A DNA stretch of 64,000 bases, from positions 310,001-374,000 of the forward strand of contig CALVBS010000002.1 of NCBI GenBank assembly GCA_944325865.1, read 5' to 3'. Below the pieces are notes generated by a model. It did not search any database. It worked only from the letters and a program-made list of their open reading frames with translations, and was not told where the DNA came from. The position numbers and the translations under genes are program-made. Source of the DNA: Candidatus Gastranaerophilales bacterium (lineage in GTDB: Bacteria; Cyanobacteriota; Vampirovibrionia; Gastranaerophilales; Gastranaerophilaceae). Each line of letters begins with the position of its first letter. Position 1 is the first letter of the stretch. Shown here in pieces: positions 41,749-58,154 of the stretch.

Positions 41749-41752
41749 ATAT

Positions 41753-42898
41753 CTATGTATTTTCCTTTATATAATTTAGAACTTCATTTAATTTTTCAAA
41801 GTCATCATCGCCTGTAAAATAACTTGGACTAAATCTTACAGTTCCTGAAGGATATGTCCCCATATATTTATGTGAATCGGGAGCACAATGCAAGCCTGTC
41901 CTTACTGCGATACCATGTTCGCTCATGACTATACCTATATTCTCGCATGGGTATGTGTCAAAAATGGACGCAATAATTCCGACTTGTTTAAAATTAGGAT
42001 GAATAAAGGTTTTTATGTTATTATGCTTGCTTAATATCTGTAATAATTTATCAAAATTTTCTTTTTCTTTTTCATGAATTGCTTTTATTCCAGTTTCTTT
42101 TATCCATTTTAAAGAAGCATTTAGGCCTGCTATTGCCATAATATTAGGACTCCCGGCTTCAAATCTATCAGGGATGTTGGCTGGCATATTTATGTTTGCA
42201 GAATCAACTCCTGTTCCTCCAAAAATAAAAGTTTTAAGATTGTCTGATTTTTTTAGCACGAAACCAGCAATTCCTGTTGGTGCATAAAGAGTTTTATGCC
42301 CTGCAAAAATTACATAATCAAAGTGATTTACAATAGTTGTATCAAGCAATCCAGCGGTTTGCGACATATCTATAACTGTTTTGGCGGATACTTCATGTGC
42401 AAGTTTAGAAACGTCCTCAATTGGAAATATAAAACCAAACGAATTACTTGCGTGATTCATAATAACAAGTTTGGGTTTATCTATGTTAAATTGTGTTTTA
42501 ATAATGTTTAAATCATATTCAAGAGAGTTTTTATCGGGTTCTATATATTTAATTTTAATCTTATAACGGTTTTTTATTTGTTCTAAAGTCCTTAAAACTG
42601 CATTATGCTCAAACCTTGTAATAAACACAACATCATTTTCATGCCAATTCTGTCCAAATAATATTGTATTCATGGCAATTGTGGATGATGGTGTGAATAC
42701 AGTTTCATAATCCGCATTTGCCTGAAATAAATCAAGTATTAAATCCCTTGTTTCTCTTACTATGTTTGCAGCAATTGAAGCTTCTTTGTATTGCCCTCTT
42801 GAAACATTAACGCCATAATCACGATAAAACGAGTCCATAAAATCATAGACTTGTTCCGGTTTTGGAAATGTGGTTGCAGCATTATCAAAATAGTACAT
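41753..42898 (-). CDS. Cysteine desulfurase (DndA-like role)
   Basis: This 381-residue class V aminotransferase fold has the PLP lysine K202 (FAGHKTLYAP) and the catalytic cysteine C338 (RTGLHCAPDSHKYMGT). It takes sulfur from cysteine as a persulfide. The sequence type is that of the single-gene desulfurase subgroup rather than of IscS or SufS housekeeping enzymes. Inside an operon with a DndC-like enzyme it most likely supplies sulfur as DndA does. It overlaps the 1214-residue ATPase gene (TAATG) upstream. Confidence 0.9.
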   Translation of the reverse strand: MYYFDNAATTFPKPEQVYDFMDSFYRDYGVNVSRGQYKEASIAANIVRETRDLILDLFQANADYETVFTPSSTIAMNTILFGQNWHENDVVFITRFEHNAVLRTLEQIKNRYKIKIKYIEPDKNSLEYDLNIIKTQFNIDKPKLVIMNHASNSFGFIFPIEDVSKLAHEVSAKTVIDMSQTAGLLDTTIVNHFDYVIFAGHKTLYAPTGIAGFVLKKSDNLKTFIFGGTGVDSANINMPANIPDRFEAGSPNIMAIAGLNASLKWIKETGIKAIHEKEKENFDKLLQILSKHNNIKTFIHPNFKQVGIIASIFDTYPCENIGIVMSEHGIAVRTGLHCAPDSHKYMGTYPSGTVRFSPSYFTGDDDFEKLNEVLNYIKENT

Positions 42899-45800
42899 TA
42901 TATAAGAACCTTATTTATTATATCTACTAACACTTGTCTCTTTTCTTCTGAAGATAGAGATTCCCCGTACTCTTCCATCATCGCTTCAGCATCGTTATAT
43001 AATAATTTAGCCTGTGAAGAGTATTCCTTTTTCTCAAATGTTTTAAACTCTTCATGTCCAAAAGCATCTATATAACTAATTTTATAAAATTCTGTTTTAT
43101 TTTTACCTTGTTTAGCGATTTTATTACTATATGCTTCAATGTTATTCTTAAATTTTTCTAATGAAATATTGTACGATTCAATTGTTATTTGATCCCAATC
43201 ATCTATTCTTAATCCGGTTGAAGTTCTGGCAAGCATTTCAATAAATTTATTAGTATCTGCAGTCGGTTTCAAACACAATCCTAACATTTGCTCCTCACTG
43301 CTACTAAAGGCATGCGTTAAGACATCTTCACTAAATTGTTCTGACCAATCTTTTAATACTGATGATAAAGATGCTTTTTTATTCAAATTATTTGTAGCAA
43401 ACATCGATTTCATTTCATCGCTTAAAGTATTAATCAAATTAGCTTTTATATTATCAAGATATTCTTTTGCTGCTAATATATCTTGTTCTATTTTCAATGA
43501 GAATGTATCATATCCAAATATTTCAGGCAATTTATCAAATAAAAATTCTCTGGCATTAATTTCAGGTGCTTTTAAAGAATTTTTGAATTTTAAGATTCTC
43601 TTGTCAAGAGCTTTAGATTTATTTTTATCTACATATTCTGTAGTCATTTCCTTTGTATATTTCGGCAATTGAAAAAACCAACGCTGCATTGCCCTTACAA
43701 TGAATTCGAAGTTGTTATATTCTGTTTCTTCTTCATGCACATATTCAGAAAATGTATTTTTTAAATCTTCAATATATTTTTCTTTTTTTGTATCCCATTC
43801 TTCTAATGCAATATTGTAGTTGTATGGCTCTTCATTAATACTATCTAATAATTTTGCATTAATCTCGACTTCTTTTCCATTTTTAAGTATTACTGCGTAT
43901 TTTTTATAATGATGTAAAACACACGCAATATATATTGGAATTAAGCCCATTTTCATTCCAATATGATGATTAGGTTCGGTTAATATGTCATATAATTCTT
44001 TAAATGACAACTGCTTTTCAGAAGATTTAACTATAAATTTCTTTATTAAATTCAATACATTTTGTAATTTTTTGTTCTTTAAATTTTCTGTATTGATATA
44101 ATATTGACCGGCTTTTTCTACTAAAATCCCTTCGTTCTTAACTGTACTTCTCATAAAACTGACATCTTGACCTGTTGCAATTAGACCCAGATTTTCTTTT
44201 ATATTATTTTCTAATATACCTGCTATAACTTTACTTCTGCTGTTTATCGCTTGACTTGAAAGAATATTCTTATTCAATACTTCATTATTTATTATTGGAT
44301 AATCTTTGTATGTCTCTTCACAAATCTCTGATAATTTTTTAGAAAGTACTGAACGACGATTAATCAGTTCTTCGTGTCCATTATTGTAATATTTTGATTG
44401 ATTTAATTCCGGTCTTAAATATATATCTATAAAATCTGAAATGACATCAGATAATGCATTCAAAGAATATGATAATTCTTCCGATAATATTTCGTCATCG
44501 GTATTATCAATTAAATATTTAATGGCATCATACTTTATAATTTGTTCGTTAATATTATCTCTTTTCTTAGGAACTATAAATATAATTCTTTTGTTATTTA
44601 CATTTTTGTAGGCTTCTTTGAATACTATTTTTTTATCTTCGCTAATTTTAGGAATAACAGCAAATACAATACCATCTGCTCCATCTGATTTTATTACTTG
44701 TTCCCAATCAGTTATTCCATTTAAATCTTCTTGATTAACGAATTTAAAGTTAAAAAATCTGGTAACTTCATTACTATCGTTATATGCATTTGGATATAGC
44801 ACTTTATTTCCAACGAAATCATTTAAAATATCTTTTATTTCTACTAAATTTTTTCGTTCTTCAATAGTATCATTAATTTTTGCTTCTACATTAATATCTG
44901 TATGCTCTGTAATCCTCAAATAATTTCCATTTTCGATCTGTCTTATTATTCCTTTATTTTTTAAATTTGTAAAAGCTTGATTTAATTTTTGAAAATCTGA
45001 TACTGAGTTTTCGAAAATATTAGAGATTAAATTTACAGTAGGAGACAATAATTCAAAATGGTCATATATATATATTAAAGCAATTGTTTTAATAATCTTC
45101 TTCTCTAACAGTTCATTATTATTTAATTTATTTAATGCGGCATAAGCATTTTTCCAATATTTGTGTGTGTCTTTTTTATAATCTTCTGCTTTAAATAATG
45201 GTTCAAAATAATCATATATATAATCAGGCGTTAATATAGGAAAATCTTGATTATTATTCTTTAAAAACGAATAAAGTGTATGTTTCTGATTTCGCGATGA
45301 TAAGAATGTAAATATTGTTCTCTCGTTTTGAGCAATTTTTTCTGAAATATTTGGTAACAGAAATGTAGTTATTGCTTGTAAAGGATAACAACCTATAACA
45401 ATTTTTTCTATATCGTGATATTCAAGACTTGAGAAAGCTTTTGCCTCTTCCCATTTTTTTAACATATTATTAAAACGTTTTTCGTTATCTCTCAGGTAAT
45501 CTTTGTACCAGTTAGGTTCTTGGCATATGATTTTTGACATTAAATCGAATTGCTGTGATAAAGAAGTACTAAACTCAAGAGTTTTAAATCTATTTGATAC
45601 AGCTTTCCAAGCATCAATTTTATTTTTAGGTAATTTATCAACATAGTTTAAAATGCTTTGATGAGAAATTAACAAAATATGCAATTGTTGTTCTTTAGTA
45701 CGGCAACAATTTTCAGCAAAATCTTGTAATGTTTTTATTTCTGCTGCCGATGTTTTATTTAGATTCCCTTCGAGAAATTTACTAAACTCATCATAAATAA

Positions 45801-46542
45801 CATAAATCCCGGTATAACCTTCTTTTTTAAGCGATTTATTGACGGAATTATATAATTCAATAACGTCAATATTTGATATAGGATTAAATTCACTTCCCGC
45901 GGTAAGACTAGGATAAATTTCTTTAAAATTTTCATAATAATCAATATTATAATTTTTTAATTCTGTAATATAGTTGTTAACACTACAATCAATATTCTTT
46001 TTGAATTGATTATATGTAGCTTCATAGTTTTTTTGCCAGTTCAAAATAGTTGTTATAGCAGATTTAAAATATGTATCCGGCATTACATGATCAAGATTGG
46101 CATTTTTCAATGCGGTATTTAATCCAGACATTAATGCCTGTCGTATTCCCATACTACTGCCTTGTATAATAACTGGGAACATCTTCTTTTTACTATCCAA
46201 GTAATTTTTTGTATATGTGCATAATTCAGATTCACCTTTTGTATTTTGCGTACTCTGACAAATATATGACAATAAGTTTGAAAACAATTCCGGTTCTTTT
46301 CTGTACAATAATGAAGCAATTATCAATGCTAAATGGGATTTACCTTTACCATATGCTCCAACAAATATTTTTGCACGGTCATTTGAAGTATTTGATGTGC
46401 TTAACATTATATCTTCTATAATTTCAATTGCACTTGGTGTTGGTATATAGTTTTTAATTTTATCATCGCTGTTAATATCGTATGCAATGTTTATTGCATA
46501 TTGAAAATCTTGCATAATGTTAATATTTTTTGTCAAATCCAT
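42898..46542 (-). CDS. Large P-loop ATPase of the defence operon (BrxC/PglY-like layout)
   Basis: This 1214-residue protein has an N-terminal ATPase with Walker A GAYGKGKS (62-69) and a Walker B-type IYVIYDE (246-252). A sensor-like ISHQS and a very long helical C-terminal part (about 550-1214) without a known domain follow. The G-x-x-G-x-GKSH P-loop and the size recall BrxC/PglY and related giant defence ATPases. It probably couples sensing to the helicase-nuclease or controls modification, which is inference. It lies between the DUF4007 gene (11-base gap) and the desulfurase gene (overlap). Confidence 0.72.
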   Translation of the reverse strand: MDLTKNINIMQDFQYAINIAYDINSDDKIKNYIPTPSAIEIIEDIMLSTSNTSNDRAKIFVGAYGKGKSHLALIIASLLYRKEPELFSNLLSYICQSTQNTKGESELCTYTKNYLDSKKKMFPVIIQGSSMGIRQALMSGLNTALKNANLDHVMPDTYFKSAITTILNWQKNYEATYNQFKKNIDCSVNNYITELKNYNIDYYENFKEIYPSLTAGSEFNPISNIDVIELYNSVNKSLKKEGYTGIYVIYDEFSKFLEGNLNKTSAAEIKTLQDFAENCCRTKEQQLHILLISHQSILNYVDKLPKNKIDAWKAVSNRFKTLEFSTSLSQQFDLMSKIICQEPNWYKDYLRDNEKRFNNMLKKWEEAKAFSSLEYHDIEKIVIGCYPLQAITTFLLPNISEKIAQNERTIFTFLSSRNQKHTLYSFLKNNNQDFPILTPDYIYDYFEPLFKAEDYKKDTHKYWKNAYAALNKLNNNELLEKKIIKTIALIYIYDHFELLSPTVNLISNIFENSVSDFQKLNQAFTNLKNKGIIRQIENGNYLRITEHTDINVEAKINDTIEERKNLVEIKDILNDFVGNKVLYPNAYNDSNEVTRFFNFKFVNQEDLNGITDWEQVIKSDGADGIVFAVIPKISEDKKIVFKEAYKNVNNKRIIFIVPKKRDNINEQIIKYDAIKYLIDNTDDEILSEELSYSLNALSDVISDFIDIYLRPELNQSKYYNNGHEELINRRSVLSKKLSEICEETYKDYPIINNEVLNKNILSSQAINSRSKVIAGILENNIKENLGLIATGQDVSFMRSTVKNEGILVEKAGQYYINTENLKNKKLQNVLNLIKKFIVKSSEKQLSFKELYDILTEPNHHIGMKMGLIPIYIACVLHHYKKYAVILKNGKEVEINAKLLDSINEEPYNYNIALEEWDTKKEKYIEDLKNTFSEYVHEEETEYNNFEFIVRAMQRWFFQLPKYTKEMTTEYVDKNKSKALDKRILKFKNSLKAPEINAREFLFDKLPEIFGYDTFSLKIEQDILAAKEYLDNIKANLINTLSDEMKSMFATNNLNKKASLSSVLKDWSEQFSEDVLTHAFSSSEEQMLGLCLKPTADTNKFIEMLARTSTGLRIDDWDQITIESYNISLEKFKNNIEAYSNKIAKQGKNKTEFYKISYIDAFGHEEFKTFEKKEYSSQAKLLYNDAEAMMEEYGESLSSEEKRQVLVDIINKVLI

Positions 46543-46553
46543 TTTTCCACCCT

Positions 46554-47435
46554 TTAAATACTTAAACTTTCATAATATTTTTTAAGACACTCTATAAATG
46601 ACATTTTTGTCTGTAATTTTACAATATCAAGCCCTGCAGATCTTACGACCCTTATTAATCCTTGGTTCTGCAAATTATCTAAATACTGTGCAACTTGGAT
46701 TTTGTCAAGATTAAAAATTTTACCAATGTTACCAGGATCTTTTTCTATTTTAGAGATTTTTATATCAGTTGCTTTTTCTTTTTCATTTTCTCTAATTATG
46801 ATTGCCAAGATTATAAGCGGGTTAATTGTCGCAAAACTTGGTGCCATTTTAGAGTATATTTTATTCTTTTTATCCAGTAGTTTTATAAGACCTAATTCAG
46901 TTAATGGCGATTCGATATTGCTTTCGGGGTTAAAATCTCTACTATTTGATTTAAAATAAGTTTTGATAATACAATCAAAATCATCTCCTAGTGATTTCTC
47001 TGACACCTGTGTTTCTGGTTCTTCAACACTAATGTAGGATTGAATATCTGATATAAAAGATTCTTTTGTAATTTCATTCATATTGTAAATATTGAAGAAA
47101 TAATACCAAGCTGTCGCCTGTTCCTTATTTGAAACCAACATGTAATGAAGAATACAGAAAGTACCATCTTCCTCCATAAACAAATCGTTATCCCATATTA
47201 ATTGTCCAAGTTCAGTAAACTCTTGATATTTTTGAGTAGTACCAGTCTCTTCTGTCAAACCAAATACCTGTAACCAATAACGCAGAGCTTTGACCATATT
47301 CGACCCAATACCAAGCTCATCCATAGGATTAATATTTTTATCAACAAATAATCTTGGATTATCTTTTATATGTTTCATTCCTTTATGCAACCAGCCTTTT
47401 CTGATTGCAAAAGTATCATGTGCTCTGAACTTCAT
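46554..47435 (-). CDS. DUF4007 family protein
   Basis: This 293-residue protein matches the DUF4007 profile as I know it: FRAHDTFAIRKGWLHKGMKH, LGIGSNMVKALRYWLQVFGL, and LGQLIWDNDLFMEEDGTFCI. DUF4007 genes are repeatedly found beside PAPS-reductase-like genes in phosphorothioation-type loci. A C-terminal winged-helix-like region (NLDKIQVAQYLDNLQNQGLI) suggests DNA binding. It starts 10 bases after the DndC-like gene. Confidence 0.85.
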   Translation of the reverse strand: MKFRAHDTFAIRKGWLHKGMKHIKDNPRLFVDKNINPMDELGIGSNMVKALRYWLQVFGLTEETGTTQKYQEFTELGQLIWDNDLFMEEDGTFCILHYMLVSNKEQATAWYYFFNIYNMNEITKESFISDIQSYISVEEPETQVSEKSLGDDFDCIIKTYFKSNSRDFNPESNIESPLTELGLIKLLDKKNKIYSKMAPSFATINPLIILAIIIRENEKEKATDIKISKIEKDPGNIGKIFNLDKIQVAQYLDNLQNQGLIRVVRSAGLDIVKLQTKMSFIECLKKYYESLSI

Positions 47436-47445
47436 AGATATTCTC

Positions 47446-49164
47446 CTACTTTTTTGCTTTTGTTACTAGGTATCCAGCCATTAAACAACCGGCATCAAGG
47501 TATTTTGCTGTCACACACATTTTGCAATGTCTACATTTGTTTGCGTCTATCTTATATGTATTTTGGTTAACTGTTATTGCTCCAAAATTACATACAGATT
47601 CACACTTTAAGCATTTTCTACAACTATTATATTTTCTAATTTGGTATCCAATCATTCTTTGTAAATCATCATGTTTTTGAACATTCATAGTTTTTACTTT
47701 TATTGCGTACTCATAATTTTGCTGCTGAAATGGTTGCAATGACATTATAGGTATGTTTGTCGCAATGTCAAGCACTAATACCTCTTTTAATAATTTTCTA
47801 CCGAGTTCTTTCGAAACTTTACCAAACGGTGTAAAAAGTGTATAAAAATCATCTGTTATCGGTTTATTTAATTGATAAATTTTTGCATTTTCTTCAGCAG
47901 TACAATTTGTATATTTTATTTTTACATCTTCGGCGGCTATTAAGCCATTTCCACCCTGACGAGCTTTCCACTTTCCTGTATCAACATAAACTTCAGCATC
48001 AGGTTTACCAATTTTTTTAGCGAAATTGACTAAAAACTCTCTCCATTTAGTTGATTCTTCCGGCATGTATATTCTCGATAGGAAAGCGGCTCTATCGTTA
48101 TTGTTAGGACAACACCAACAACCAACTCTATCGTATCCGAGTTTATAAGCATCATTAAAATCAATATTTTCTCCAAGCATATAGAGCCAAATATCAATGT
48201 CTTTCCAATAAAATATAGGTGAAGCAACCACCTGTTTTTTGATTTTTATCGATTCTGCATTATCTTCAATTCTATTGTATTTGCTTCTACTAACAGATTC
48301 ACATTTTCTTATGCCATAAAATGTCAAAAGCTTTTTGTCTCGATAAAGATTGGATAAAATCCTGGTTATAGGTCCTGTTTTAAACATAGTACAGCACCAG
48401 CGCATAACTCTTGATGGTGGCCCTATATCTTCACATACGTGATAAAACTTCTGTTCTTTATTTTTAGAAATTTTTAAAATAATTTTGGGATTATCTTTTC
48501 TAAAACGTTTTAAATATTCATATGTAAGAGGGAATTCTAGTGTTGTATCTCCAAAAATATGTACAAGACCTGGATTACTCAATGCTCTAACAACGAGATC
48601 AGCTACAACCGTTGAGTCTTTCCCTCCAGAAAATGATATGACTATATTTTCGGCAGGATAATCTTTTACAGCATCTTTTATAAAATTAAATGCTTCGTCC
48701 TTAAGATAGGAAAGCCTTTCTTTATTTATTCTAACAAATTTTTGTATGTACTCTGAAAATTTATTTTTTTCGTTATCGACATGGTATTTTTCTAATTCTT
48801 TAATAATGCTATTTGTATCCATTTGTAGACATTTAGAAAATGAAACAAGAACCAATTCTCCATCAATATAATAGCGATTATTAGCACACCATACAGAACT
48901 ATTTATATATTTTAAAGGAATTTTCTTAACGATTTCCATTAATAGACGTTCTTGAGGGAATACAGGTCGTAAATCAGCCGCAAAATATTTTATCTTTTTC
49001 CCACATTCAGGGCAATTATCTAAATTACTATTACAAGGTCTAATTATGGGCACATTACAATGACTACACCAATATATTTCAATAGGTATATCTTCAACTG
49101 TTATTTCTCCACATACTTCGCAGATTTTGTTATCAGTTTCTCTATTACAAGATTTGCACCACAA
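47446..49164 (-). CDS. DndC-like PAPS-reductase-fold enzyme with zinc ribbons and a ferredoxin tail
   Basis: Numbered from an upstream TTG at 49305, the protein has two zinc ribbons (C50/C53/C62/C65 and C80/C83/C98/C101). It then has an ATP-pyrophosphatase PP-loop SGGKDST (226-232). Two cysteine clusters follow, RWCC (302-305) and GCWCC (395-399), as in DndC iron-sulfur enzymes. The tail has CRKCLKCESVC (562-572) and CRHCKMC (591-597), a two-cluster ferredoxin pattern. It would activate DNA phosphate with ATP and transfer sulfur. I prefer the TTG at 49164, because GAGGG lies 7 bases before it and it begins LWCKSCN; the extension to 49305 looks non-coding. It is first of eight tightly packed genes. 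Confidence 0.85.
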   Translation of the reverse strand: MWCKSCNRETDNKICEVCGEITVEDIPIEIYWCSHCNVPIIRPCNSNLDNCPECGKKIKYFAADLRPVFPQERLLMEIVKKIPLKYINSSVWCANNRYYIDGELVLVSFSKCLQMDTNSIIKELEKYHVDNEKNKFSEYIQKFVRINKERLSYLKDEAFNFIKDAVKDYPAENIVISFSGGKDSTVVADLVVRALSNPGLVHIFGDTTLEFPLTYEYLKRFRKDNPKIILKISKNKEQKFYHVCEDIGPPSRVMRWCCTMFKTGPITRILSNLYRDKKLLTFYGIRKCESVSRSKYNRIEDNAESIKIKKQVVASPIFYWKDIDIWLYMLGENIDFNDAYKLGYDRVGCWCCPNNNDRAAFLSRIYMPEESTKWREFLVNFAKKIGKPDAEVYVDTGKWKARQGGNGLIAAEDVKIKYTNCTAEENAKIYQLNKPITDDFYTLFTPFGKVSKELGRKLLKEVLVLDIATNIPIMSLQPFQQQNYEYAIKVKTMNVQKHDDLQRMIGYQIRKYNSCRKCLKCESVCNFGAITVNQNTYKIDANKCRHCKMCVTAKYLDAGCLMAGYLVTKAKK

Positions 49165-49292
49165 AATTTTTCCCTCTTTGGCGTATTGAATCCACAAATT
49201 CTTCTTCCAATACGAATTAAGTTTAGCATAAAAATGATGAAAAATCTTTTTATAGTAAAATATTAACAATATATATTTATAATGGTATTCTA

Positions 49293-49568
49293 CTAAATAC
49301 AACAATAATTAACATCTAAAATATGGATAATATATCTTTCAAAATCTTGGTTGTAGCGTTCGCCGGTGATAAGTTTTGAAACGTAGCTCTCAGTAAGTTT
49401 CAATCTTTTTGCAAGCATTTTTTGTGGCATATTTTTCTGCAGCATTTTGAAACGTATCATTCTTTCCCTGCGATACAGAAAATGGCTTCCACCGTCTTTC
49501 ATATTATTTGGGCTTTTTGCCATTTTTTGCTCAAGCAATTCAATCTGTTTTCTCAATTCTTTACGCAT
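49293..49568 (-). CDS. Small helix-turn-helix DNA-binding protein
   Basis: This 91-residue basic protein has a coiled N-terminus and then an HTH: KMLAKRLKLTESYVSKLITG. AAGGAG precedes its ATG. It lies 130 bases ahead of the Dnd-like operon in the same direction and faces the SAM riboswitch gene across a shared control region. It may be the local repressor of the operon. Its closeness to a transposon end also leaves open a role as the element's repressor. Confidence 0.75.
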   Translation of the reverse strand: MRKELRKQIELLEQKMAKSPNNMKDGGSHFLYRRERMIRFKMLQKNMPQKMLAKRLKLTESYVSKLITGERYNQDFERYIIHILDVNYCCI

Positions 49569-49666
49569 AAAAACTCCTTAAAATTAGTTGGGGTTGGCAT
49601 TAGGGTACACACATTTTAACTCATTTTACGAAAACATCAAGTCATAAAAATTACAAATTGATTAAT

Positions 49667-49692
49667 TTGACATTTTTTGTTAGTATTATACA
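49667..49692 (+). promoter_or_regulatory. Possible promoter of the riboswitch transcript
   Basis: TTGACA (49667-49672) is followed 14 bases later by TATACA (49687-49692). The -35 box is perfect, but the spacing is short and the -10 imperfect. It is placed correctly to start a transcript a few bases before the riboswitch stem P1 at 49707. Confidence 0.4.
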
Positions 49693-49706
49693 AAGTTAAT
49701 AGAAAT

Positions 49707-49825
49707 ACCTATAAAGAGTGTACGAGGGACAAGCCCGTTGACTACACAGCAACCTATTAAGTTAGGTGCTAAAGCTTGAATGATAGGTGGATATTAGGAA
49801 ACCTATCGCTATGGGTTTCTTTTTT
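49707..49825 (+). promoter_or_regulatory. SAM-I-type riboswitch with transcription attenuator
   Basis: The aptamer follows the S-box consensus: AAAGAG, then GAGGGACAAGCCCG (49724-49737), a UUGA kink-turn-like piece, CAGCAACC (49747-49754), and GGTGCTAA (49765-49772). P1 forms between ACCTAT (49707-49712) and ATAGGT (49783-49788); P3 forms between ACCTA (49752-49756) and TAGGT (49763-49767). The expected P4 is very short or absent. GATAGGT (49782-49788) can instead pair with ACCTATC (49801-49807) as an antiterminator. The alternative GAAACC/GGTTTC hairpin (49798-49819), followed by T6, is a terminator. This is the logic of an OFF switch: SAM binding holds P1, frees the terminator and stops transcription. 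Confidence 0.82.
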
Positions 49826-49871
49826 GTTGCTCTTATAGATTTGTAGTACTAAATGAAAAAGGAGAACAACT

Positions 49872-50480
49872 ATGGAACAACAAGAAGAAAAAAGTTTGAA
49901 AAACTACTACGCAAAATGCGTACTAAGAAACAAATTCGGGTTATCAGGTGATTTAGCAGAAGTTGTATCAAAATTAATGCTAAATTTCTATGACAAATTT
50001 TTTGAAAACTTTGATCCTGAAAAGGCAAAACATTACCGAAATGCGGCATCAAATATGATGATGGATCCAAGACCTAACTACAATGCCAAGATAGATTTTT
50101 ACATAGGTTTAATGGATAAAGACACAAAATCATACCACTACACAAAGGAACAAGCTAAGCAGAAAGTTTTTGAAGTTTTGGGTGATTGCACAATAACGGA
50201 TGCAACAGGTTGTTATACAAATGAAAAAGGTGAACGTATCATAATGGACACCCTTGTTGCAACTAAAATATTGGAGCGGGTTCCAAAAGATTATCAGCAC
50301 GATACATCTTATAAATTAAAAGAGATTTTTAATCAGTCAAGTATAATTAATGCAGGAAATACCTGTGAGATTAGATATAATAATGAATCGCCAGAGACAA
50401 TACGTTATATTCAAGATATGATGGACGAATATGATTTATTCTGGGAAGAAGCCGAACAAGCCATGAACGCGGGATGGTAA
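49872..50480 (+). CDS. Riboswitch-controlled protein of unknown function
   Basis: This 202-residue acidic, mainly helical protein matches no family I recognise. It begins MEQQEEKSLKNYYAKCVLRN and has a middle strand-rich piece TITDATGCYTNEKGERIIMD. There is no signal peptide, membrane segment or methionine/SAM-enzyme motif. AAAGGAGAA lies 6 bases before the ATG, 47 bases after the attenuator. Being behind a SAM riboswitch suggests a link to methionine, SAM or methylation status. Its place at the front of the transposition genes suggests instead a role for the element. Confidence 0.75.
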   Translation: MEQQEEKSLKNYYAKCVLRNKFGLSGDLAEVVSKLMLNFYDKFFENFDPEKAKHYRNAASNMMMDPRPNYNAKIDFYIGLMDKDTKSYHYTKEQAKQKVFEVLGDCTITDATGCYTNEKGERIIMDTLVATKILERVPKDYQHDTSYKLKEIFNQSSIINAGNTCEIRYNNESPETIRYIQDMMDEYDLFWEEAEQAMNAGW

Positions 50481-50573
50481 CATCAAATTCTGAGCTGGTT
50501 TGTGTCTGAATGATACAAACCAGCTCGGAAACAGTTCTATTCTTCCGAGTTACGAGCAATAAATGTTAAAGCG

Positions 50574-52562
50574 ATGAACGAAGAAAAATACATTACAATC
50601 AAAGAATTAGCGGAACTCAAAGGTGTAAGTACCCGAGCAATCCGGCTTTCTTTGAAGAAATATGTAATCAGAGAAATTACTGTCAAAGGCGGAAAAAGTT
50701 TTGAGATTTTGTTATCAAGTATTGAACCGGAGCTTCAGGGAAAATATTATTCAAAAATTATTCCGACTTATGAAGTTAAACAACTTCCTGTGCCAACAGA
50801 TTTTCATAAACCTAATAAAGCAAAAATTATTGCACTTGCAAGATTGGATTTATTGAGCCTTTGGCAAAAAGAACGAAAAAATCAAAGTAATAAAACACAA
50901 TTTGATAAGGATTTTTTGAGTGCTTATAACGCACAGGTTTTATATCCCGAGATTTATGCAAAACTCGGAAATGTTTCAATAGGCACACTTCAAAGGTGGA
51001 AGAGAATTTTAGGGAACAGCAATAATTATGAACTTTTAATTCCAAATTACCATTATGAAGATTATTCAAGAACATGTCTAACAGAGCACGAAAAGCAGAT
51101 CTTTTTAAAACTGCTTTTGCATCCGAATAAATTCAGTATCGGGAAAGCGACTTCTTTAACACAATATGTTTTAAAAACTCAGGGTGCGGAATATATTCCT
51201 GCTCCACCAACATTCAGAAAATTTGCCAATTGGTATAAAGCAAATTATTACGACAAGTGGACACTTTTAAGGGATGGCGAAAAAGCTTTAAAAGAAGAAG
51301 TTATTCCGCATATAAAAAGAGATATTTCTAAAATTGAAGTCGGAGATGTTTTGGTTGCTGACGGAAAAAGATTAAATTTTCAGGTAATAAATCCGTTTAC
51401 AGGAAAACCCTGCCGAGCAACATTAATTGGCTTCTTGGATTGGAAAGCAACTGCGCTTGTCGGGTATGAAATAATGATTGAAGAAAATACGCAGAATATA
51501 GCGTCGGCTCTGCGTAATGCAATATTGAATCTGAGCAAAATCCCGAAGTTTGTTTACTTAGATAACGGTAGAGCATTCAGGGGTAAATATTTCACAGGTA
51601 GTGCAAAATTTGATGAGATTGGTTTAAAAGGTATTTATGAAAAACTCGGTATAACAACAGTTTTTGCGAATCCGTATAATGCGAGAGCAAAAGTAATTGA
51701 ACGATTCTTTTTAGAAATGCAAGAAAGTTTTGAAAAGCTGCTTCCAAGTTACATAGGAACAAACATAGAAAACAAACCGGTAAGATTAAGAAGGAACGAA
51801 AAATTTCACTCTGAGATTCATCGGGAATTTGTGCCAACTATTCAACAAATAATTCAGATGATAAACAGCTGGCTTGAGTATAAAAATTCTTTTCCGTGTC
51901 CGAATAATAAATCAAAAACCATTCAGGAAATGCTTAATAGCATTGAAAAACAGGAAATAAACCCAAGAGAACTTGATGATTTGATGCTGGCGCAAGAAAT
52001 TAAAACAATTAAAAGTCAGGGGATAAGATTTTTGAAATCGGATTACTATAATGATGCCCTTTATGGCTTAAGGCAGAAAGTAATAATAAAATACAGTTTG
52101 TTTGATTTAAGTTACATTAATGTTTATACAATATCAGGTAAGTTTTTATGCCGAGCAGACAGAATTACACTAACTCATCCGCTTGCACACTATACCGGAG
52201 AAATTAATGATATAGAAGATTACAAACAGAAAATTCAAAAACAAAAACAACTTAAAAATAAAACAATAAAGGCTTGCAAAGAATTTTTAAATATTGAAGA
52301 TTTAGAAATTTTAGAATGCCGATTGGAAGAAAAAGAAGAAGAAATACATTTACCCCTGCCAAGTATTCAACAGATAGAAATCAAAAAAGAAAAACCGGAA
52401 AAATATAATCCCGCGGTAAGACCGTTATTCAAAACAAGCAGAGAAAGATATGAATACCTGATGGAGCACGGTTGCACATGCAATGACGATAGAATCTGGC
52501 TTAAAGCATATAAAGAATCAAAGGAGTTCAAAGAATATGAAACCAAAATTTGTACTGACTAA
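50574..52562 (+). CDS. Mu/TnsB-type DDE transposase
   Basis: This 662-residue protein has an N-terminal winged HTH (KYITIKELAELKGVSTRAIR), further DNA-binding domains and a retroviral-integrase-fold core. The catalytic triad reads D263 (VLVADGKRL), D330 (FVYLDNGRAF) and E376 (ARAKVIERFF). A Mu-type C-terminal beta domain (KVIIKYSLFDLSYINVY) and a helical tail complete it. It should cut and join the element ends, with the AAA protein choosing the target. It overlaps the next gene by 26 bases. The length matches MuA and TnsB. Confidence 0.92.
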   Translation: MNEEKYITIKELAELKGVSTRAIRLSLKKYVIREITVKGGKSFEILLSSIEPELQGKYYSKIIPTYEVKQLPVPTDFHKPNKAKIIALARLDLLSLWQKERKNQSNKTQFDKDFLSAYNAQVLYPEIYAKLGNVSIGTLQRWKRILGNSNNYELLIPNYHYEDYSRTCLTEHEKQIFLKLLLHPNKFSIGKATSLTQYVLKTQGAEYIPAPPTFRKFANWYKANYYDKWTLLRDGEKALKEEVIPHIKRDISKIEVGDVLVADGKRLNFQVINPFTGKPCRATLIGFLDWKATALVGYEIMIEENTQNIASALRNAILNLSKIPKFVYLDNGRAFRGKYFTGSAKFDEIGLKGIYEKLGITTVFANPYNARAKVIERFFLEMQESFEKLLPSYIGTNIENKPVRLRRNEKFHSEIHREFVPTIQQIIQMINSWLEYKNSFPCPNNKSKTIQEMLNSIEKQEINPRELDDLMLAQEIKTIKSQGIRFLKSDYYNDALYGLRQKVIIKYSLFDLSYINVYTISGKFLCRADRITLTHPLAHYTGEINDIEDYKQKIQKQKQLKNKTIKACKEFLNIEDLEILECRLEEKEEEIHLPLPSIQQIEIKKEKPEKYNPAVRPLFKTSRERYEYLMEHGCTCNDDRIWLKAYKESKEFKEYETKICTD

Positions 52563-53223
52563 AAATGTAAAAGGATTTATCAACCTGATTCATAACCTAA
52601 AAAATAAACCTGATAATATTTCCAAAATTGGTCTGGTTTATGGAAACGCCGGACTTGGCAAAACCAAAACGGCTTTGTATTTATCAATTCAATATGATGC
52701 GATTTATGTTAGGGCAACAAATTCAATGAGTCCAAAATGGATGCTTGAAGAAATAGCAAAAGAACTTGATGAAATTCCAAGATTTTATACAGCAGATATA
52801 TTCAGGCAATGTGTTAATACTCTGAAAACAAATCCGCAGATGATTATAGTTGATGAAATTGATTATCTGTTAAAAGACTTCAGAACAATAGAAACTTTAA
52901 GAGATTTGCATGATGAAACAGGAGTTCAGATTATTCTGGTCGGAATGCAGCTAGCAAAACACAAACTCAAAAAGCATACGCATTTATTTGACAGAATATC
53001 AGAAATTTATAATTTTACTGAATTTGAATATTCTGATATCAAGCAGATTACAGAAGAATTATCCGAAGTTGAAATAACAAAAGATGCTGTACTTTTAATC
53101 CATAACAAAGTAAAAAGCTTCCGACAAATTGTAAATACAATTGATACTTTTGAAAAAGTAGCGCAGGCAAACGGATTAACGCAAATTGACGAAAATATAG
53201 CTCAGGAGGTGCTCGGTGGATAA
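52537..53223 (+). CDS. MuB/TnsC-type AAA ATPase of the transposon
   Basis: This protein of about 228 residues has Walker A GNAGLGKTKT and Walker B MIIVDEIDYL. Arginine-finger-type GVQIILVGMQLAKHK and a C-terminal helical lid follow. MuB and TnsC bind target DNA and activate the transposase. I place the start at the ATG at 52537, which has AAGGAG 7 bases upstream; a longer frame opens at 52483. It overlaps the transposase gene end and is followed by an overlapping third gene. Confidence 0.9.
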   Translation: MKPKFVLTKNVKGFINLIHNLKNKPDNISKIGLVYGNAGLGKTKTALYLSIQYDAIYVRATNSMSPKWMLEEIAKELDEIPRFYTADIFRQCVNTLKTNPQMIIVDEIDYLLKDFRTIETLRDLHDETGVQIILVGMQLAKHKLKKHTHLFDRISEIYNFTEFEYSDIKQITEELSEVEITKDAVLLIHNKVKSFRQIVNTIDTFEKVAQANGLTQIDENIAQEVLGG

Positions 53224-54007
53224 AATTTTAAAAGTCGCAAAAAGGTTAAAAACATTTACTCTCGAAGATATCGTAATGTTCGGCGAAATAGATGCAGATA
53301 TCGCCGGAAAATTTTTGCAAGAATCAGAAAACATAAAATCATGCGAAAATAAGTTTGAATATGTCGAAATCGTAAAAACTGAAGATAAATTTAAAATTAT
53401 TGATAAAAATATTCCGAGTAAAAATTCAGATATTATTGTAGTTACTGCTTGCAAGATATTTTTAGAAAATTGCCAGAATAGAAATATAACCCATAACACT
53501 TTAAACGCATACAGAACTTTTATAAATGCACATATTACCCCATATTTTAAAGATTTTAAATTAAAAGATATTAAAATTTCTGATGTTGAAAATTTCAGAA
53601 AAACTATGCAAAATAAACAAATTTCTGAACGAAGAATTAAAAATATTCTTGCACTCCTGAATCAGATAATAAAATATTTTCAAAATGAAGGTTATATTGA
53701 TAAAACCTGCGTTTTTGAAGTAAAAAGAATTGCAAATATTCCCAAAAGACAAATTCAAATTTTAACTCCGGAACAACTGTCGCAACTTTTTAAAATTCTG
53801 AAAAATAAATATCCATATATGCTTCCTATTGTTCAAAAATTAATCACATTAAAACAGCCTTTGAACACTATTTTAACAGGTGGTGAACAACAAAAGAAAT
53901 CATTGAAACGAAAAATAAGAAAAGATTTTTATAAGATAAAGCAAGAGCTTGGACTTACAAACTATATGTTTGATGATTTAAAGTTCTGTCAAAAATGTGT
54001 AGATTGA
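53216..54007 (+). CDS. Tyrosine-recombinase-like protein without catalytic residues
   Basis: This 263-residue protein has an N-terminal winged HTH (about 1-55) and an SAM-like core-binding domain (about 75-165), NTLNAYRTFINAHITPYFK, as in phage integrases. After LTPEQLSQLFKIL (184-195), where a recombinase would have its first catalytic Arg, the domain is short. The later FDDLK (252-256) sits where HxLR would be, and no Tyr nucleophile follows. It is therefore probably a DNA-binding accessory factor. It starts with GTG behind AGGAGGTG, overlapping the AAA gene by 8 bases. Confidence 0.8.
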   Translation: MDKILKVAKRLKTFTLEDIVMFGEIDADIAGKFLQESENIKSCENKFEYVEIVKTEDKFKIIDKNIPSKNSDIIVVTACKIFLENCQNRNITHNTLNAYRTFINAHITPYFKDFKLKDIKISDVENFRKTMQNKQISERRIKNILALLNQIIKYFQNEGYIDKTCVFEVKRIANIPKRQIQILTPEQLSQLFKILKNKYPYMLPIVQKLITLKQPLNTILTGGEQQKKSLKRKIRKDFYKIKQELGLTNYMFDDLKFCQKCVD

Positions 54008-54120
54008 AATAAAAAGTCATGTAAAAAAGTGTTTGTTTGACATGAATTTGTGCGTAAAAAAGTGTAAAACCGCATTGATTTTTTGGGTAAAAAAGTGTAA
54101 AATCATGTTAGGTATTAATG
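54006..54120 (+). repeat. Array of short repeats at the transposon right end
   Basis: Boxes of the form TAAAAAAGTGT recur at 54020-54032, 54056-54067, 54090-54101 and, weaker, at 54120-54128 (gtaaaaaggtg). An AAATAAAAAGTCATG start lies at 54006. Their spacing of about 30-35 bases is that of TnsB/MuA binding-site arrays. The AAA/DUF4143 gene starts only a few bases beyond them. Confidence 0.75.
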
Positions 54121-54135: not shown

Positions 54136-55434
54136 ATGAAAAGAAAATTACTGGAAAATCTTATAGAATGGAAAAACAAAGAGGGACATAAACCACTGAT
54201 TCTTGAAGGTGCAAGACAAGTCGGCAAAACATGGTTAATGCAAGAATTCGGGAAAACTCAGTATAAAAAGGTTGCATATATTAACTTTGATCGAAATTTA
54301 AAAATGCGTGAAAATTTCGAAATTGATTTGGATACAAAACGATTAATCACGGCAATTAGTCTTGATGCAGAATTTAAAATCACGCCCGAAGATACTTTAA
54401 TTATTTTTGATGAAATACAGGAATGTCCAAGGGCAATAACTTCGCTAAAATATTTTAATGAAGATGCTCCAGAATATGATATTGTTGCTGCAGGTAGTTT
54501 GCTTGGTGTTGCTCATCATTCAGGAACAGGTTTTCCTGTTGGCAAAGTTGAATTTTTAAGACTTTACCCATTGAGTTTTACCGAATTTTTGGATGCGATG
54601 GGTAAAGAACAATATGTTGAATTGATAGAAAAACAAGACTTCCAAATGATAAAACTTTTTAATAACAAATTTGAAGACTTGCTTAAACAATATTGTTATG
54701 TCGGAGGAATGCCGGAAGCAGTTCAGGATTTTGTCAATAATAAAGATTTTAATCAGGTACGAACAATTCAAGAACGTATATTATCATCTTATGAAATGGA
54801 TTTTTCAAAACATATACCGTCAAATACTGTAGAAAAAGCACGTATGTTATGGAACTCAATTCATACACAGCTTGCAAAAGAAAATAAAAAATTTATTTAT
54901 AATGCAATTAAGAAAGGTGCAAGAGCAAAAGAATTTGAAACAGCTTTAACATGGTTAAGAAATAACGGACTTGTCTATCAAGTTCATAAAATTACAAAAC
55001 CTGGTTTACCAATTGGTGCATATACTGATTTGGATGCATTTAAACTTTTTGTATTGGATGTTGGTTTGTTGGGAGCACTATCCGGACTTGAAGCAAAAAC
55101 GATACTCGGTAAATATGAGATATTCCAAGAATTTAAAGGCGCAATTACAGAACAGTATGTTTTACAACAATTTAAAAGTATAGGGATACCTGTATACTAT
55201 TGGACAAATGAAACAAGTCGTTCGGAAGTTGATTTTGTTATTCAAAAAGAATCTAAAGTTATTCCTGTTGAAGTCAAAGCCGCTACAAATTTAAAGGCAA
55301 GGAGTTTAAAAATATATATGGAGCAATTTAAACCTGAATTAGCACTGAGAACTTCTTTAGCAGATTATAAAAAGACAGAAAATCTTGTGGATATACCATT
55401 GTATGCAATAGAAATAATTAAAGAGGAATTATGA
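54136..55434 (+). CDS. AAA_14/DUF4143 ATPase
   Basis: This 432-residue protein has an N-terminal AAA domain with Walker A GARQVGKTWLMQEF and Walker B LIIFDEIQECPRA, then AAGSLLGV. The C-terminal DUF4143 domain contains TEQYVLQQF and SEVDFVIQ, a PD-(D/E)XK-like fold that usually lacks activity but here keeps E-V-D-F and a following VEVKA. Such proteins are common single genes in gut bacteria. Here the stop overlaps the OLD-family gene start (ATGA), so it is part of the defence unit. Confidence 0.88.
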   Translation: MKRKLLENLIEWKNKEGHKPLILEGARQVGKTWLMQEFGKTQYKKVAYINFDRNLKMRENFEIDLDTKRLITAISLDAEFKITPEDTLIIFDEIQECPRAITSLKYFNEDAPEYDIVAAGSLLGVAHHSGTGFPVGKVEFLRLYPLSFTEFLDAMGKEQYVELIEKQDFQMIKLFNNKFEDLLKQYCYVGGMPEAVQDFVNNKDFNQVRTIQERILSSYEMDFSKHIPSNTVEKARMLWNSIHTQLAKENKKFIYNAIKKGARAKEFETALTWLRNNGLVYQVHKITKPGLPIGAYTDLDAFKLFVLDVGLLGALSGLEAKTILGKYEIFQEFKGAITEQYVLQQFKSIGIPVYYWTNETSRSEVDFVIQKESKVIPVEVKAATNLKARSLKIYMEQFKPELALRTSLADYKKTENLVDIPLYAIEIIKEEL

Positions 55435-57037
55435 TAAAAAAAATTATAATAAAAAATTATAAACAATTTGAGGATTTTAGTCTTGACCTAAATCCTGATA
55501 TTAATATAATAGTTGGAAATAATGAAGCAGGCAAAACAACTTTATTTGAGGCTATAAATCTTGGACTTACACAAAAACTAAATGGTAGATTGATTGCACA
55601 AGAGCTGACACCATATCTTTTTAATATTAAAGCAAGGGATCTATATTTAAAGGAATTGAAAGAGAATCCAAAAACTGCAAAACTACCTGAGATACTTATT
55701 GAGATTTACTTTACTGACGATATTAGTGGAGATTTTAAAGGAAGCATAAATTCATTAAAAGAAGATTGTGCGGGTGTTTCTTTAAGAATATGTTTTGACA
55801 GTGATTTTCAAAAAGAGTACGAAAAATATATAATTGAACCTGAAAAAGTTAAAGAAATACCAATAGAATATTATAAAGTTGAATGGTATAGTTTTGCAAG
55901 TAATCCATTTAGATTTTTGGAACTGCCTATAAAATCACATTTAATCGATAATATTGAACATAGATATATACAAGGATCAGATAAATATATTGCTGAACTT
56001 GTTGGAGACTATTTAGATGAAACACAAAAGTCATTATTGGCACTAAAATATAGACAATTGAAAGAAGAATTTACAGGAGATGAAAAAATAAAAAGCATTA
56101 ATGATGAGTTTCAAAGTACAGGAACTTCTATCTCTGATAAAAATGTCCAAATTTCAATTGATATATCTGCAAAGAATTCTTGGGATTCTATATTATCACT
56201 ATATTTTGATGATATACCTTTTAAATTTATTGGCAAAGGTGAACAAAATTCTGTAAAAATAAAATTGGCATTAAAAGAAAAACTTGAACAATCAGATATA
56301 ATTATGATAGAAGAACCGGAAACAAGTCTGTCTTTTTCAAATTTAAATAAATTAGTAAGTGTTATTTCCAAAGTGTGCGAAGGTAAACAATTACTAATTA
56401 GTACTCACAGTTCTTTTGTTGCAAATAAAACCGGTATTGATAAATTAATTCTATTAAACAAGAATAAAAGTTTTAAAATAGCTGATTTATCCCCGGATAC
56501 ATATGAATATTTTAAAAAATTGTCCGGTTATGATACTTTGCGTATGATTCTTGCAACTAAAAGCATTTTAGTTGAAGGACCATCTGATGAATTGATTATT
56601 CAAAAAGCATATTATGATACATACGATAAACTACCAATAGAAGAAGGTACAGATGTAATAGCTGTCTCATCTTTAGCGTTTAAAAGATTTCTCGAAATTG
56701 CAAAAGGATTGAACCTTAATACGGTTGTGGTTACTGATAATGATGGTAATATAGCAAAACTAAAAGAAAAATATAGTGATTATTTAAATGAAGAGAATAT
56801 AAAAATATGTTTTTCAGCAGATGCAAATCTTAATACTTTAGAACCAAATATGTATGCAGCAAATGGATACGATAAATTAAAGGTGCTGTTTACAAGACCG
56901 GCCAACGATACAGAAGAACAATTTAAAAAATTTTTTATATCAAAAACAACAAAACAAAAGTTGCATTAACTATTTTTGATACAGAAAAAGGGACTGTAGA
57001 TTTTCCACAGTATATAAAAGATGCCATTAAAAAATAA
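55431..57037 (+). CDS. OLD-family (GajA-like) ATPase-nuclease with a frameshift near the end
   Basis: The protein has an N-terminal ABC-type ATPase with Walker A GNNEAGKT (29-36) and Walker B IIMIEEPE (290-297). A TOPRIM nuclease domain follows with E382 (VEGPSDE) and DND (436-438). The frame stops at 56969 (512 residues). Shifting one base at the A5 run 56942-56946 restores reading into VALTIFDTEKGTVDFPQYIK up to 57037, which fits the family's ending. The intact gene would be about 535 residues. It pairs with a UvrD-like helicase, the Gabija arrangement. The break may be a mutation, a phase-variable tract or a sequence error. Confidence 0.82.
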
Positions 57038-58154
57038 TATTTTAATACACTCAACAGCAGGCTCCGGGAAAACAACTTGTTTAGTCAAAGTTGCATTGAA
57101 TAATGCTGATAAAAAAATTTTAATAACAACTTATACGAGAAACAATGCTCAAGAAATTAAAAATAAATTTGTTGAATTAAATGGCTATGTACCGAAAAAT
57201 GTAGAAATCACAACTTGGGAAACATTTCTACTTAAAAATTGTATAAGACCTTATCAAAATCTAATGGGCTTTGAAGATAGAATTTATCAAGTCTATTTTA
57301 CAAATACAGATCCACATTTAAGAAAAGGGAGTAATGGTAAATATTACTATACAATAAAGAAAAGTAATGACATTCAGCGATATTATTTAACTTCTAACGG
57401 CCGAATTTATTCTTGCAAAATATCTGAATTTGCTGATGATTGTCATAAAATGGTAAAAGGTAAAATGCTTCAGCGAATGGAAGAATGTTACGATTATATA
57501 TTTGTGGATGAAGCTCAAGATTTTGCCGGATATGATTTTGAAATAATGAATTTGATATTAAAATCTAAAAATATAAAATCAATTATTGTGGCAGACAAAA
57601 GACAAAATACCTTTGATACACACCATTCAAAGAAAAATAAAAAATATGCTGAAAATATTATAGAATGGTTTAAGGTTTTAGAAAATAAAAAACTTGCAAA
57701 GTTAAACTATTTAAATAATACTTGGCGTTGTAATCAACAAATTTGTGATATTGCAGATTCTTTATATCCAGAGTTACCTAAATCCATATCAAAAAATAAA
57801 ATTACCACAGAACATGACGGATTATTTTATGTGAAAAATAATAATTTAAAAAAATACATAAATAGGTATAATCCTGTTGTTTTAGCGTATGGCAAAAATT
57901 CTTGTAATGATTTAGAAACCGACATAAAGACAATGAATTTCGGAATCTCCAAAGGTTTGACTTTCGATAGGGTTATAATAAAACCAACAGAAAAAATTAT
58001 GAATTTTCTTAAATATGGTAATATTCCTGAGAAAGCAAAAGAAAAGCTCTATATTGCTATAACAAGAGCACGATACAGCGTGGGGTTTATAGTTCCAAAT
58101 GATATAGATTTAGATTCTTTTTATAATAAAAAAATTGTTGAGTGGTGTGAATAA
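57021..58154 (+). CDS. UvrD-like (GajB-like) helicase
   Basis: This 377-residue SF1 helicase shows Walker A STAGSGKTTC (11-20), motif II FVDEAQDF, NNTWRCNQQI, GISKGLTFDRVII and the motif VI LYIAITRARY. At 377 residues it is smaller than most GajB proteins (about 490). It keeps all core motifs, but the 1B/2B insertions appear reduced. Its start lies inside the restored end of the OLD gene, so the two were made as a coupled pair. In Gabija, GajB senses DNA termini and activates GajA. Confidence 0.86.
   Translation: MPLKNNILIHSTAGSGKTTCLVKVALNNADKKILITTYTRNNAQEIKNKFVELNGYVPKNVEITTWETFLLKNCIRPYQNLMGFEDRIYQVYFTNTDPHLRKGSNGKYYYTIKKSNDIQRYYLTSNGRIYSCKISEFADDCHKMVKGKMLQRMEECYDYIFVDEAQDFAGYDFEIMNLILKSKNIKSIIVADKRQNTFDTHHSKKNKKYAENIIEWFKVLENKKLAKLNYLNNTWRCNQQICDIADSLYPELPKSISKNKITTEHDGLFYVKNNNLKKYINRYNPVVLAYGKNSCNDLETDIKTMNFGISKGLTFDRVIIKPTEKIMNFLKYGNIPEKAKEKLYIAITRARYSVGFIVPNDIDLDSFYNKKIVEWCE

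Follow-up and report, generated by a model that had tools for sequence, protein, structure and literature searches.

Known SAM-responsive systems and the locus

Control of methionine metabolism is the textbook role of SAM-I riboswitches. The locus described here lies in a stretch of 64,000 nucleotides from Candidatus Gastranaerophilales bacterium (the window), and is probably a mobile riboswitch-gene cassette, in which a two-layer OFF switch would turn on a SAM-lyase-like protein when SAM is low. The leader of this cassette resembles the described SAM-I family (RF00162) in its core, its K-turn-bearing P2, its P3, its loop pseudoknot, and the predicted terminator/antiterminator OFF logic. However, unlike the family consensus, it has no P4, it carries a 3′ element that can pair with either the Shine-Dalgarno region or the P1 5′ strand, and the lineage to which it belongs precedes accessory genes, many of them on mobile DNA, rather than methionine genes. 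Translation is the main level of action of the SAM-I riboswitch of the Xanthomonas campestris met operon (PMC7270179), which, unlike the window leader, controls methionine synthesis, and for which the portion of that report drawn on here mentions no two-layer platform. Riboswitches borne by mobile elements and controlling a gene of the element itself have been described in Melnitz-like phages (PMC9004378), although these respond to glutamine and act on a different target.

The closest described relatives of the encoded protein are the SAM lyases Svi3-3 (6ZM9) and T3 SAMase, with which it shares a predicted PII-like ferredoxin fold and the equivalents of Gly56, Tyr58, and Gln104. Contrary to these enzymes, it has an additional N-terminal helical part, its family does not conserve Glu69, and its gene follows a SAM riboswitch. 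The fold is likewise that of the SAM-AMP lyases from Clostridium botulinum (9GAD) and phage (AcrIIIB4), the latter also having a two-part layout with an N-terminal domain (PMC12255297), whereas the catalytic Glu of these lyases is not conserved in the window family and neither CorA nor type III CRISPR genes are found among its neighbours. While the SAM-I class itself is well known, no report in the open-access literature was found that connects SAM riboswitches to phage genomes, to mobile elements, to anti-phage defence, or to a SAM lyase; the P4-less mobile lineage, the double platform, and the pairing with a SAM-lyase-like gene appear to be new in that literature.

A P4-less SAM-I aptamer

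49706 to 49789, + strand: P4-less SAM-I (S-box) aptamer (RF00162, 57.3 bits; pseudoknot covariation)

A cmscan of the whole 64-kb window places this aptamer above the RF00162 gathering cut-off of 44.4 bits (E = 1.3e-10), with model positions 1–108 covered full-length and RF00162 as the top-scoring family of its clan. It is the single RF00162 match in the 2.0-Mb genome. The SAM-I element and S-box core proposed in the original prediction are thus upheld by the covariance model, and its description of a very short P4 can be sharpened, as the P4 positions expected in the consensus are absent altogether from the model alignment. The aptamer is therefore named a P4-less variant; the P4 hairpin is part of the consensus but peripheral, and the cut-off can be reached without it. 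The window aptamer retains P2 with its K-turn, P3, GCUAA in J3/4, and a loop pseudoknot between CAAGC in L2 and GCUUG in J3/4, which shows a compensatory change to CAGGC/GCCUG in leaders L025 and L117. The identity of the aptamer is established computationally, and the window leader is predicted to respond to SAM. A simple promoter scan of the + strand found no promoter upstream of the leader.

A two-layer expression platform

49706 to 49717, + strand: P1 5′ strand and J1/2, ACCUAUAAAGAG, also captured by the 3′ element (duplex and swap tests, about 110 leaders)
49782 to 49807, + strand: antiterminator, formed by the P1 3′ strand GATAGGT (49782–49788) and ACCTATC (49801–49807) (direct sequence reading)
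49796 to 49825, + strand: intrinsic terminator with an 11-pair stem and a T run (terminator search)
49826 to 49838, + strand: 3′ element, GTTGCTCTTATAG, whose partner is the Shine-Dalgarno region or the P1 5′ strand (duplex and swap tests)
49860 to 49871, + strand: Shine-Dalgarno region, AGGAGAACAACT, maskable by the 3′ element (swap test)

The P1 3′ strand pairs with the 5′ half of the terminator, so that a P1 closed by the ligand would allow termination. This layout of P1, antiterminator, and terminator, as well as the open reading frame of 202 residues behind it, agrees with the original description. The GATAGGT/ACCTATC-type arrangement recurs in the other leaders. The terminator search reports a terminator at 49796–49821, and three terminator-like sites were found in the region, compared to 0.4 +/- 0.6 in shuffled sequences.

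The conserved 3′ element lies downstream of the terminator. Its duplex with the P1 5′ strand exceeds that of shuffles both in 97 accessory-gene leaders (mean z of -2.6) and in 13 metK leaders (mean z of -2.05), it favours its own P1 class over other P1 sequences in 84 of 110 leaders (Wilcoxon p = 4e-8), and compensatory pair types are present at the P1 positions of the duplex. Pairing between the 3′ element and the Shine-Dalgarno region of the same leader averages -11.8 kcal/mol, compared to -8.7 kcal/mol for swapped partners, and is the better one in 83 of 105 cases. Over about 110 leaders, both pairings covary. The window leader taken alone has moderate energies (-11.2 and -8.5 kcal/mol), and its own Shine-Dalgarno pairing does not stand out against the swaps. 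A Saccharofermentans-type subgroup (clusters 11, 15, 19, 25, 28, and 33) lacks the 3′ element. The anatomy of the switch and the covariation of its pairings are established computationally; from them, we infer an OFF-type platform of two layers, an intrinsic terminator and a 3′ element that masks the Shine-Dalgarno region.

A cassette inserted in a Mu-like transposon

49293 to 49568, - strand: divergent Xre/HTH_3 regulator of the Mu-like transposon (PF01381; beside MuA in relatives)
49644 to 50500, + strand: inserted cassette with upstream sequence, riboswitch, gene for the 202-residue protein, and left hairpin arm (empty-site comparison)
50574 to 52562, + strand: MuA-like transposase (Mu-transpos_C, PF09299)
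52483 to 53223, + strand: MuB/TniB-like ATPase (PF13401, PF05621)
53216 to 54007, + strand: third transposon gene, with a phage-integrase SAM-like N-domain (PF14659)

The host element holds a MuA-type DDE transposase, a MuB-type ATPase, and a divergent repressor, as expected of a Mu-like transposon, and relatives of its MuA are present in 101 of 146 genomes. Many of the closest transposon copies have the Xre and MuA genes facing each other and separated by only about 170–270 nt, which represents the empty site. When the window is aligned with such empty sites, the breakpoints fall near 49644 and 50501. They flank both the riboswitch and the gene, which therefore arrived together in a single cassette about 0.86 kb long. 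A second filled site (L155) comes from a different genome, where a related transposon carries this cassette at the corresponding position. Insertion of the cassette between the genes for the Xre repressor and MuA is thereby established computationally. The riboswitch was also considered as a general regulator of the transposon, an idea that was rejected on account of the close transposon copies without the leader; the cassette is present in a few copies only.

Between the gene for the 202-residue protein and MuA lies a hairpin (50490–50528), with compensatory changes in L155, whose left arm comes from the cassette and whose right arm comes from the transposon. Positions 54043–54108, past the third transposon gene, hold direct repeats of 33 nt with GTAAAAAAGTGTAAAA, and similar motifs lie at 54020 and 54120; the repeats may be where the transposase binds the right end of the element. 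Inverted copies of the 33-nt repeats were not found.

Linkage of leader and gene

RF00162 matches occur in 13 of the 146 genomes of the host's family. Members of the 202-residue family are found in five of these genomes, the window genome included, and all five have the aptamer directly upstream. An order-wide profile search added two homologues with the aptamer (L206 and L207), and also L208, a remote protein of phage type that lacks the aptamer. The leader thus precedes seven of the seven close homologues retrieved by protein search. Short forms of about 105 residues retain the leader, the initial residues MEQQ, and the C-terminal domain. Several genera have leader and gene side by side at sites unrelated to one another, and other homologues of the gene lie between housekeeping genes or beside methyltransferases. 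This conserved linkage is established computationally. Together with the RF00162 match and the Mu-like transposon, it sustains the original proposal that a SAM-I leader stands before a non-housekeeping gene of a mobile element, and the survey of homologues for the leader came out in its favour.

A protein with the predicted fold of SAM lyases

49872 to 50480, + strand: 202-residue protein (AlphaFold2 model, Foldseek, VIA-align, hmmsearch, hhalign)

Pfam, NCBIfam, and PADLOC scans gave no convincing match for this protein, and in PHROGs it matched phrog_3543, a phage family of unknown function (E 3.5e-5). No relatives were found among annotated phages. An AlphaFold2 model built from nine homologues (mean pLDDT 70, pTM 0.48; good core at residues 72–153, poor ends) suggests an N-terminal helical part (residues 1–68) followed by a SAM-lyase-like PII-fold domain (about 69–168). 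The top Foldseek match in the PDB is 6ZM9, a structure of product-bound Svi3-3, a phage SAM lyase (E 5e-5, probability 1.00, rmsd about 5 Å). In VIA-align, the first five ranks (Z from 10.0, for 6ZM9, to 7.8) are taken by Svi3-3 twice, the C. botulinum SAM-AMP lyase twice, and another SAM lyase. A sequence-profile search of the PDB also ranked a Svi3-3 chain first, although this match is not significant alone (E 0.35). Homology to phage proteins bearing Glu69 was obtained with hhalign (probability 93%, E 2.5e-7); a strong score from an alignment that contained the Svi3-3 piece itself is circular and was excluded from the evidence. According to the model, the monomer shares the PII-like fold of SAM lyases, and the protein may form a trimer. 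The absence of any methionine-pathway motif, as stated in the original prediction, must accordingly be revised, since Foldseek and VIA-align give this protein the fold of SAM-degrading enzymes.

SAMases have few residues in common; in Svi3-3, Gly56, Glu69, and Gln104 belong to these, and the exchanges E69Q and E69A nearly abolish activity, lowering it 4500- and 1500-fold, respectively (PMC7877911). The equivalents of Gly56 and Gln104 (G113 and Q155) are invariant in the alignment of the 202-residue family, and that of Tyr58 is also kept in the window protein. Counted without gaps from the glycine, the Glu69 position holds D in the window subclade, N in the short forms, and K or R in two others, after a deletion; counted from the second glycine or aligned by HMMER, it holds M or L. 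Glu69 is present in the leaderless phage-type relatives L208, L236, and L237. The absence of a conserved Glu69 is established computationally, and it is for this reason that the protein is called SAM-lyase-like rather than a SAM lyase. A sub-threshold match to a type II hammerhead ribozyme (L208:2208–2278; 34.4 vs 37 bits) was noticed near one of the phage-type SAM-lyase-like genes.

A wider lineage of P4-less leaders

Searches with a pattern built from the core of the window leader gave eight contigs in IMG/VR and, in GTDB genomes, at least 118 places; these counts are not frequencies, as the pattern was chosen from the window leader. The hosts among the matches listed are bacteria of the gut and rumen and include Clostridia, Gastranaerophilales, rumen Alphaproteobacteria, Spirochaetales, Erysipelotrichaceae, and a Mycoplasmataceae MAG, among others. 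Also among the matches listed, 15 of the 122 distinct leaders with a downstream gene precede metK, and the others precede 33 further BLASTP clusters of unrelated, accessory target genes, which were called automatically, so some singleton clusters will be wrong. Among the matches listed, the following target families have the most leaders:

105-residue family: 25 leaders
Zn-ribbon family: 11 leaders
Family of the 202-residue protein: 9 leaders
Mixed cluster united by a common small domain: 9 leaders
N-formylglutamate amidohydrolase-like proteins: 7 leaders
IS1595-type transposases: 5 leaders

In 14 genomes searched without the pattern, the metK leaders matched by RF00162 are canonical (up to 84 bits) and the accessory-gene leaders are of the window type; a host metK leader (L209) has P4. 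The idea that mobile elements make use of SAM riboswitches extends beyond the window, as leaders of this lineage occur on the complete genome of Ruminococcus phage NatCom_28274, upstream of a cluster-0 gene, on viral contigs, and before IS1595-type transposases. One SAM-I lineage has become detached from metabolism and travels, with one accessory gene at a time, across phyla and into phages; it offers a handle on dozens of orphan families of genes with a common predicted input signal.

The family of about 105 residues (L098:3599–3898 and 24 relatives; cluster 0, the largest other family) is also found on phages and viral contigs. It yielded a confident AlphaFold2 model (pLDDT 92) without a match in the PDB. 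A common fold for the targets of the lineage was set aside, as no link of this cluster to SAM lyases was found, a weak negative with which such a link is still compatible. The Zn-ribbon family (L036:9266–9712) has a weak, sub-threshold similarity to Lar restriction-alleviation proteins. In L197 and L198 (both at 1300–1450), decayed SAM leaders below Rfam detection precede IS1595-like transposases, with remnants such as AATAGCAACCTGTAAGG. In a Saccharofermentans genome (L079), an open reading frame for a phage-type ssDNA-binding protein lies about 168 nt behind a SAM-I leader at 4296. A cyanobacterial match (L241) was discarded as a chance hit; it overlaps the gene region of an AAA-type ATPase.

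Proposed mechanism and alternative readings

At high SAM, the SAM-bound aptamer would keep P1 closed and the terminator would form, while in any transcript that reads through, the 3′ element would hide the Shine-Dalgarno region. At low SAM, P1 would open, its 3′ strand entering the antiterminator and its 5′ strand taking the 3′ element, which would free the ribosome site and allow the SAM-lyase-like protein to be produced. Activation at low SAM is the direction that the sequence suggests. Such a compact design would draw a transcriptional and a translational layer from a single strand exchange. The protein, a relative of enzymes that destroy the very ligand of its leader, might then bind SAM, a SAM derivative, or MetK, acting while SAM drains. 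T3 SAM lyase binds and inhibits MetK (PMC11580459), which makes MetK a possible target here. Given the lost glutamate, a binder or antagonist of a ligand or of MetK is the favoured, if tentative, role for the protein, although Glu69-type lyases are rare in the host's family (1 of 146 genomes), which counts against an antagonist. A lyase for SAM-AMP or another derivative is doubtful, as is an active SAM lyase, and a role of some other kind is improbable.

An active SAM lyase would create a positive feedback, in which a drop in SAM turns the gene on and the remaining SAM is drained, stopping growth or phage methylation. The predicted lyase fold, the three retained residues, and the OFF-type platform are consistent with this, and some lyase activity is possible because the window's subclade has Asp126 where gapless counting puts Glu69, as is seen in four close members. 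Nevertheless, a full-strength lyase is disfavoured: the catalytic glutamate is replaced in both alignments, the exchanges E69Q and E69A are nearly fatal to Svi3-3 activity, and an active lyase behind an OFF switch would lower SAM further, a runaway loop that would be a costly burden. Such a feedback, for which a phage enzyme that degrades SAM could be the trigger, is therefore rather unlikely. Cleavage or binding of SAM-AMP or a related signal, as by phage AcrIIIB4, keeps its place among the alternatives because AcrIIIB4 also has an extra N-terminal domain (PMC12255297); SAM-AMP lyase structures (9GAD and 9GAB) hold VIA-align ranks 3 and 4. However, the equivalent of their catalytic Glu71, which is the Glu69 position, is likewise not conserved, and type III CRISPR genes were not noticed near the seven loci, which leaves this reading unlikely.

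Two further readings concern the leader rather than the protein. Its true target could be transposition, through SAM-gated read-through from the cassette gene into MuA and MuB, which lie on the same strand; the gap before MuA is 93 nt in both the window and L155. Leaders of the same lineage stand directly upstream of IS1595-type transposases, and that of L132 precedes an open reading frame resembling an IS630-type transposase. Most copies of the window-type MuA, however, have no leader, most homologues of the 202-residue gene are not beside MuA, and a conserved hairpin interrupts the gap, so that this target seems quite unlikely. Degenerate leaders do exist (L038, 27.9 bits; the relics before the transposases of L197 and L198), and the window leader could be a chance or decayed remnant left beside an unrelated gene by a rearrangement. 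This is highly improbable, as the core and platform are intact, the pairings covary, and the pair of leader and gene recurs at unrelated sites in several genera; the linkage in seven of seven homologues largely refutes it.

The SAM-responsive cassette outlined at the start of this section remains the preferred reading. At the level of the whole lineage, a speculative extension, to which we give little weight, is that P4-less SAM-I leaders act as a SAM-depletion alarm, turning on accessory genes, one of them coding for a SAM-lyase relative with altered catalytic residues, when a phage or another element drains SAM. If so, the host or a resident element would counter SAM-degrading invaders, and a metabolic riboswitch would have been repurposed as a sensor of genetic conflict. 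The lineage in any case opens a way to ask whether bacteria or mobile elements sense the loss of SAM during phage attack.

Defence genes around the leaders

The 150 genes flanking the leaders of the lineage show no dominant defence or phage family in Pfam and PADLOC scans, the recurrent families being WYL/WCX (3–4), HD (4), ADP-ribosylglycohydrolase (3), and scattered methyltransferases. The link to a defence locus raised in the original prediction is consequently not consistent across these neighbourhoods, and a defence-island explanation of the whole lineage was rejected for want of a common theme. The window itself does hold Ssp-like and Gabija-like genes. On the - strand beside the transposon core, 39571–49305 encodes an Ssp/Pbe-like set with SspA-, SspB-, and SspC-like proteins, a BrxP/SspD-like PAPS-reductase protein, and a PbeA-like helicase, which may form a defence system based on DNA phosphorothioation. 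On the + strand, a Gabija-like GajA/GajB pair occupies 55431–58154, preceded by a PDC-S01 ATPase at 54136–55434.
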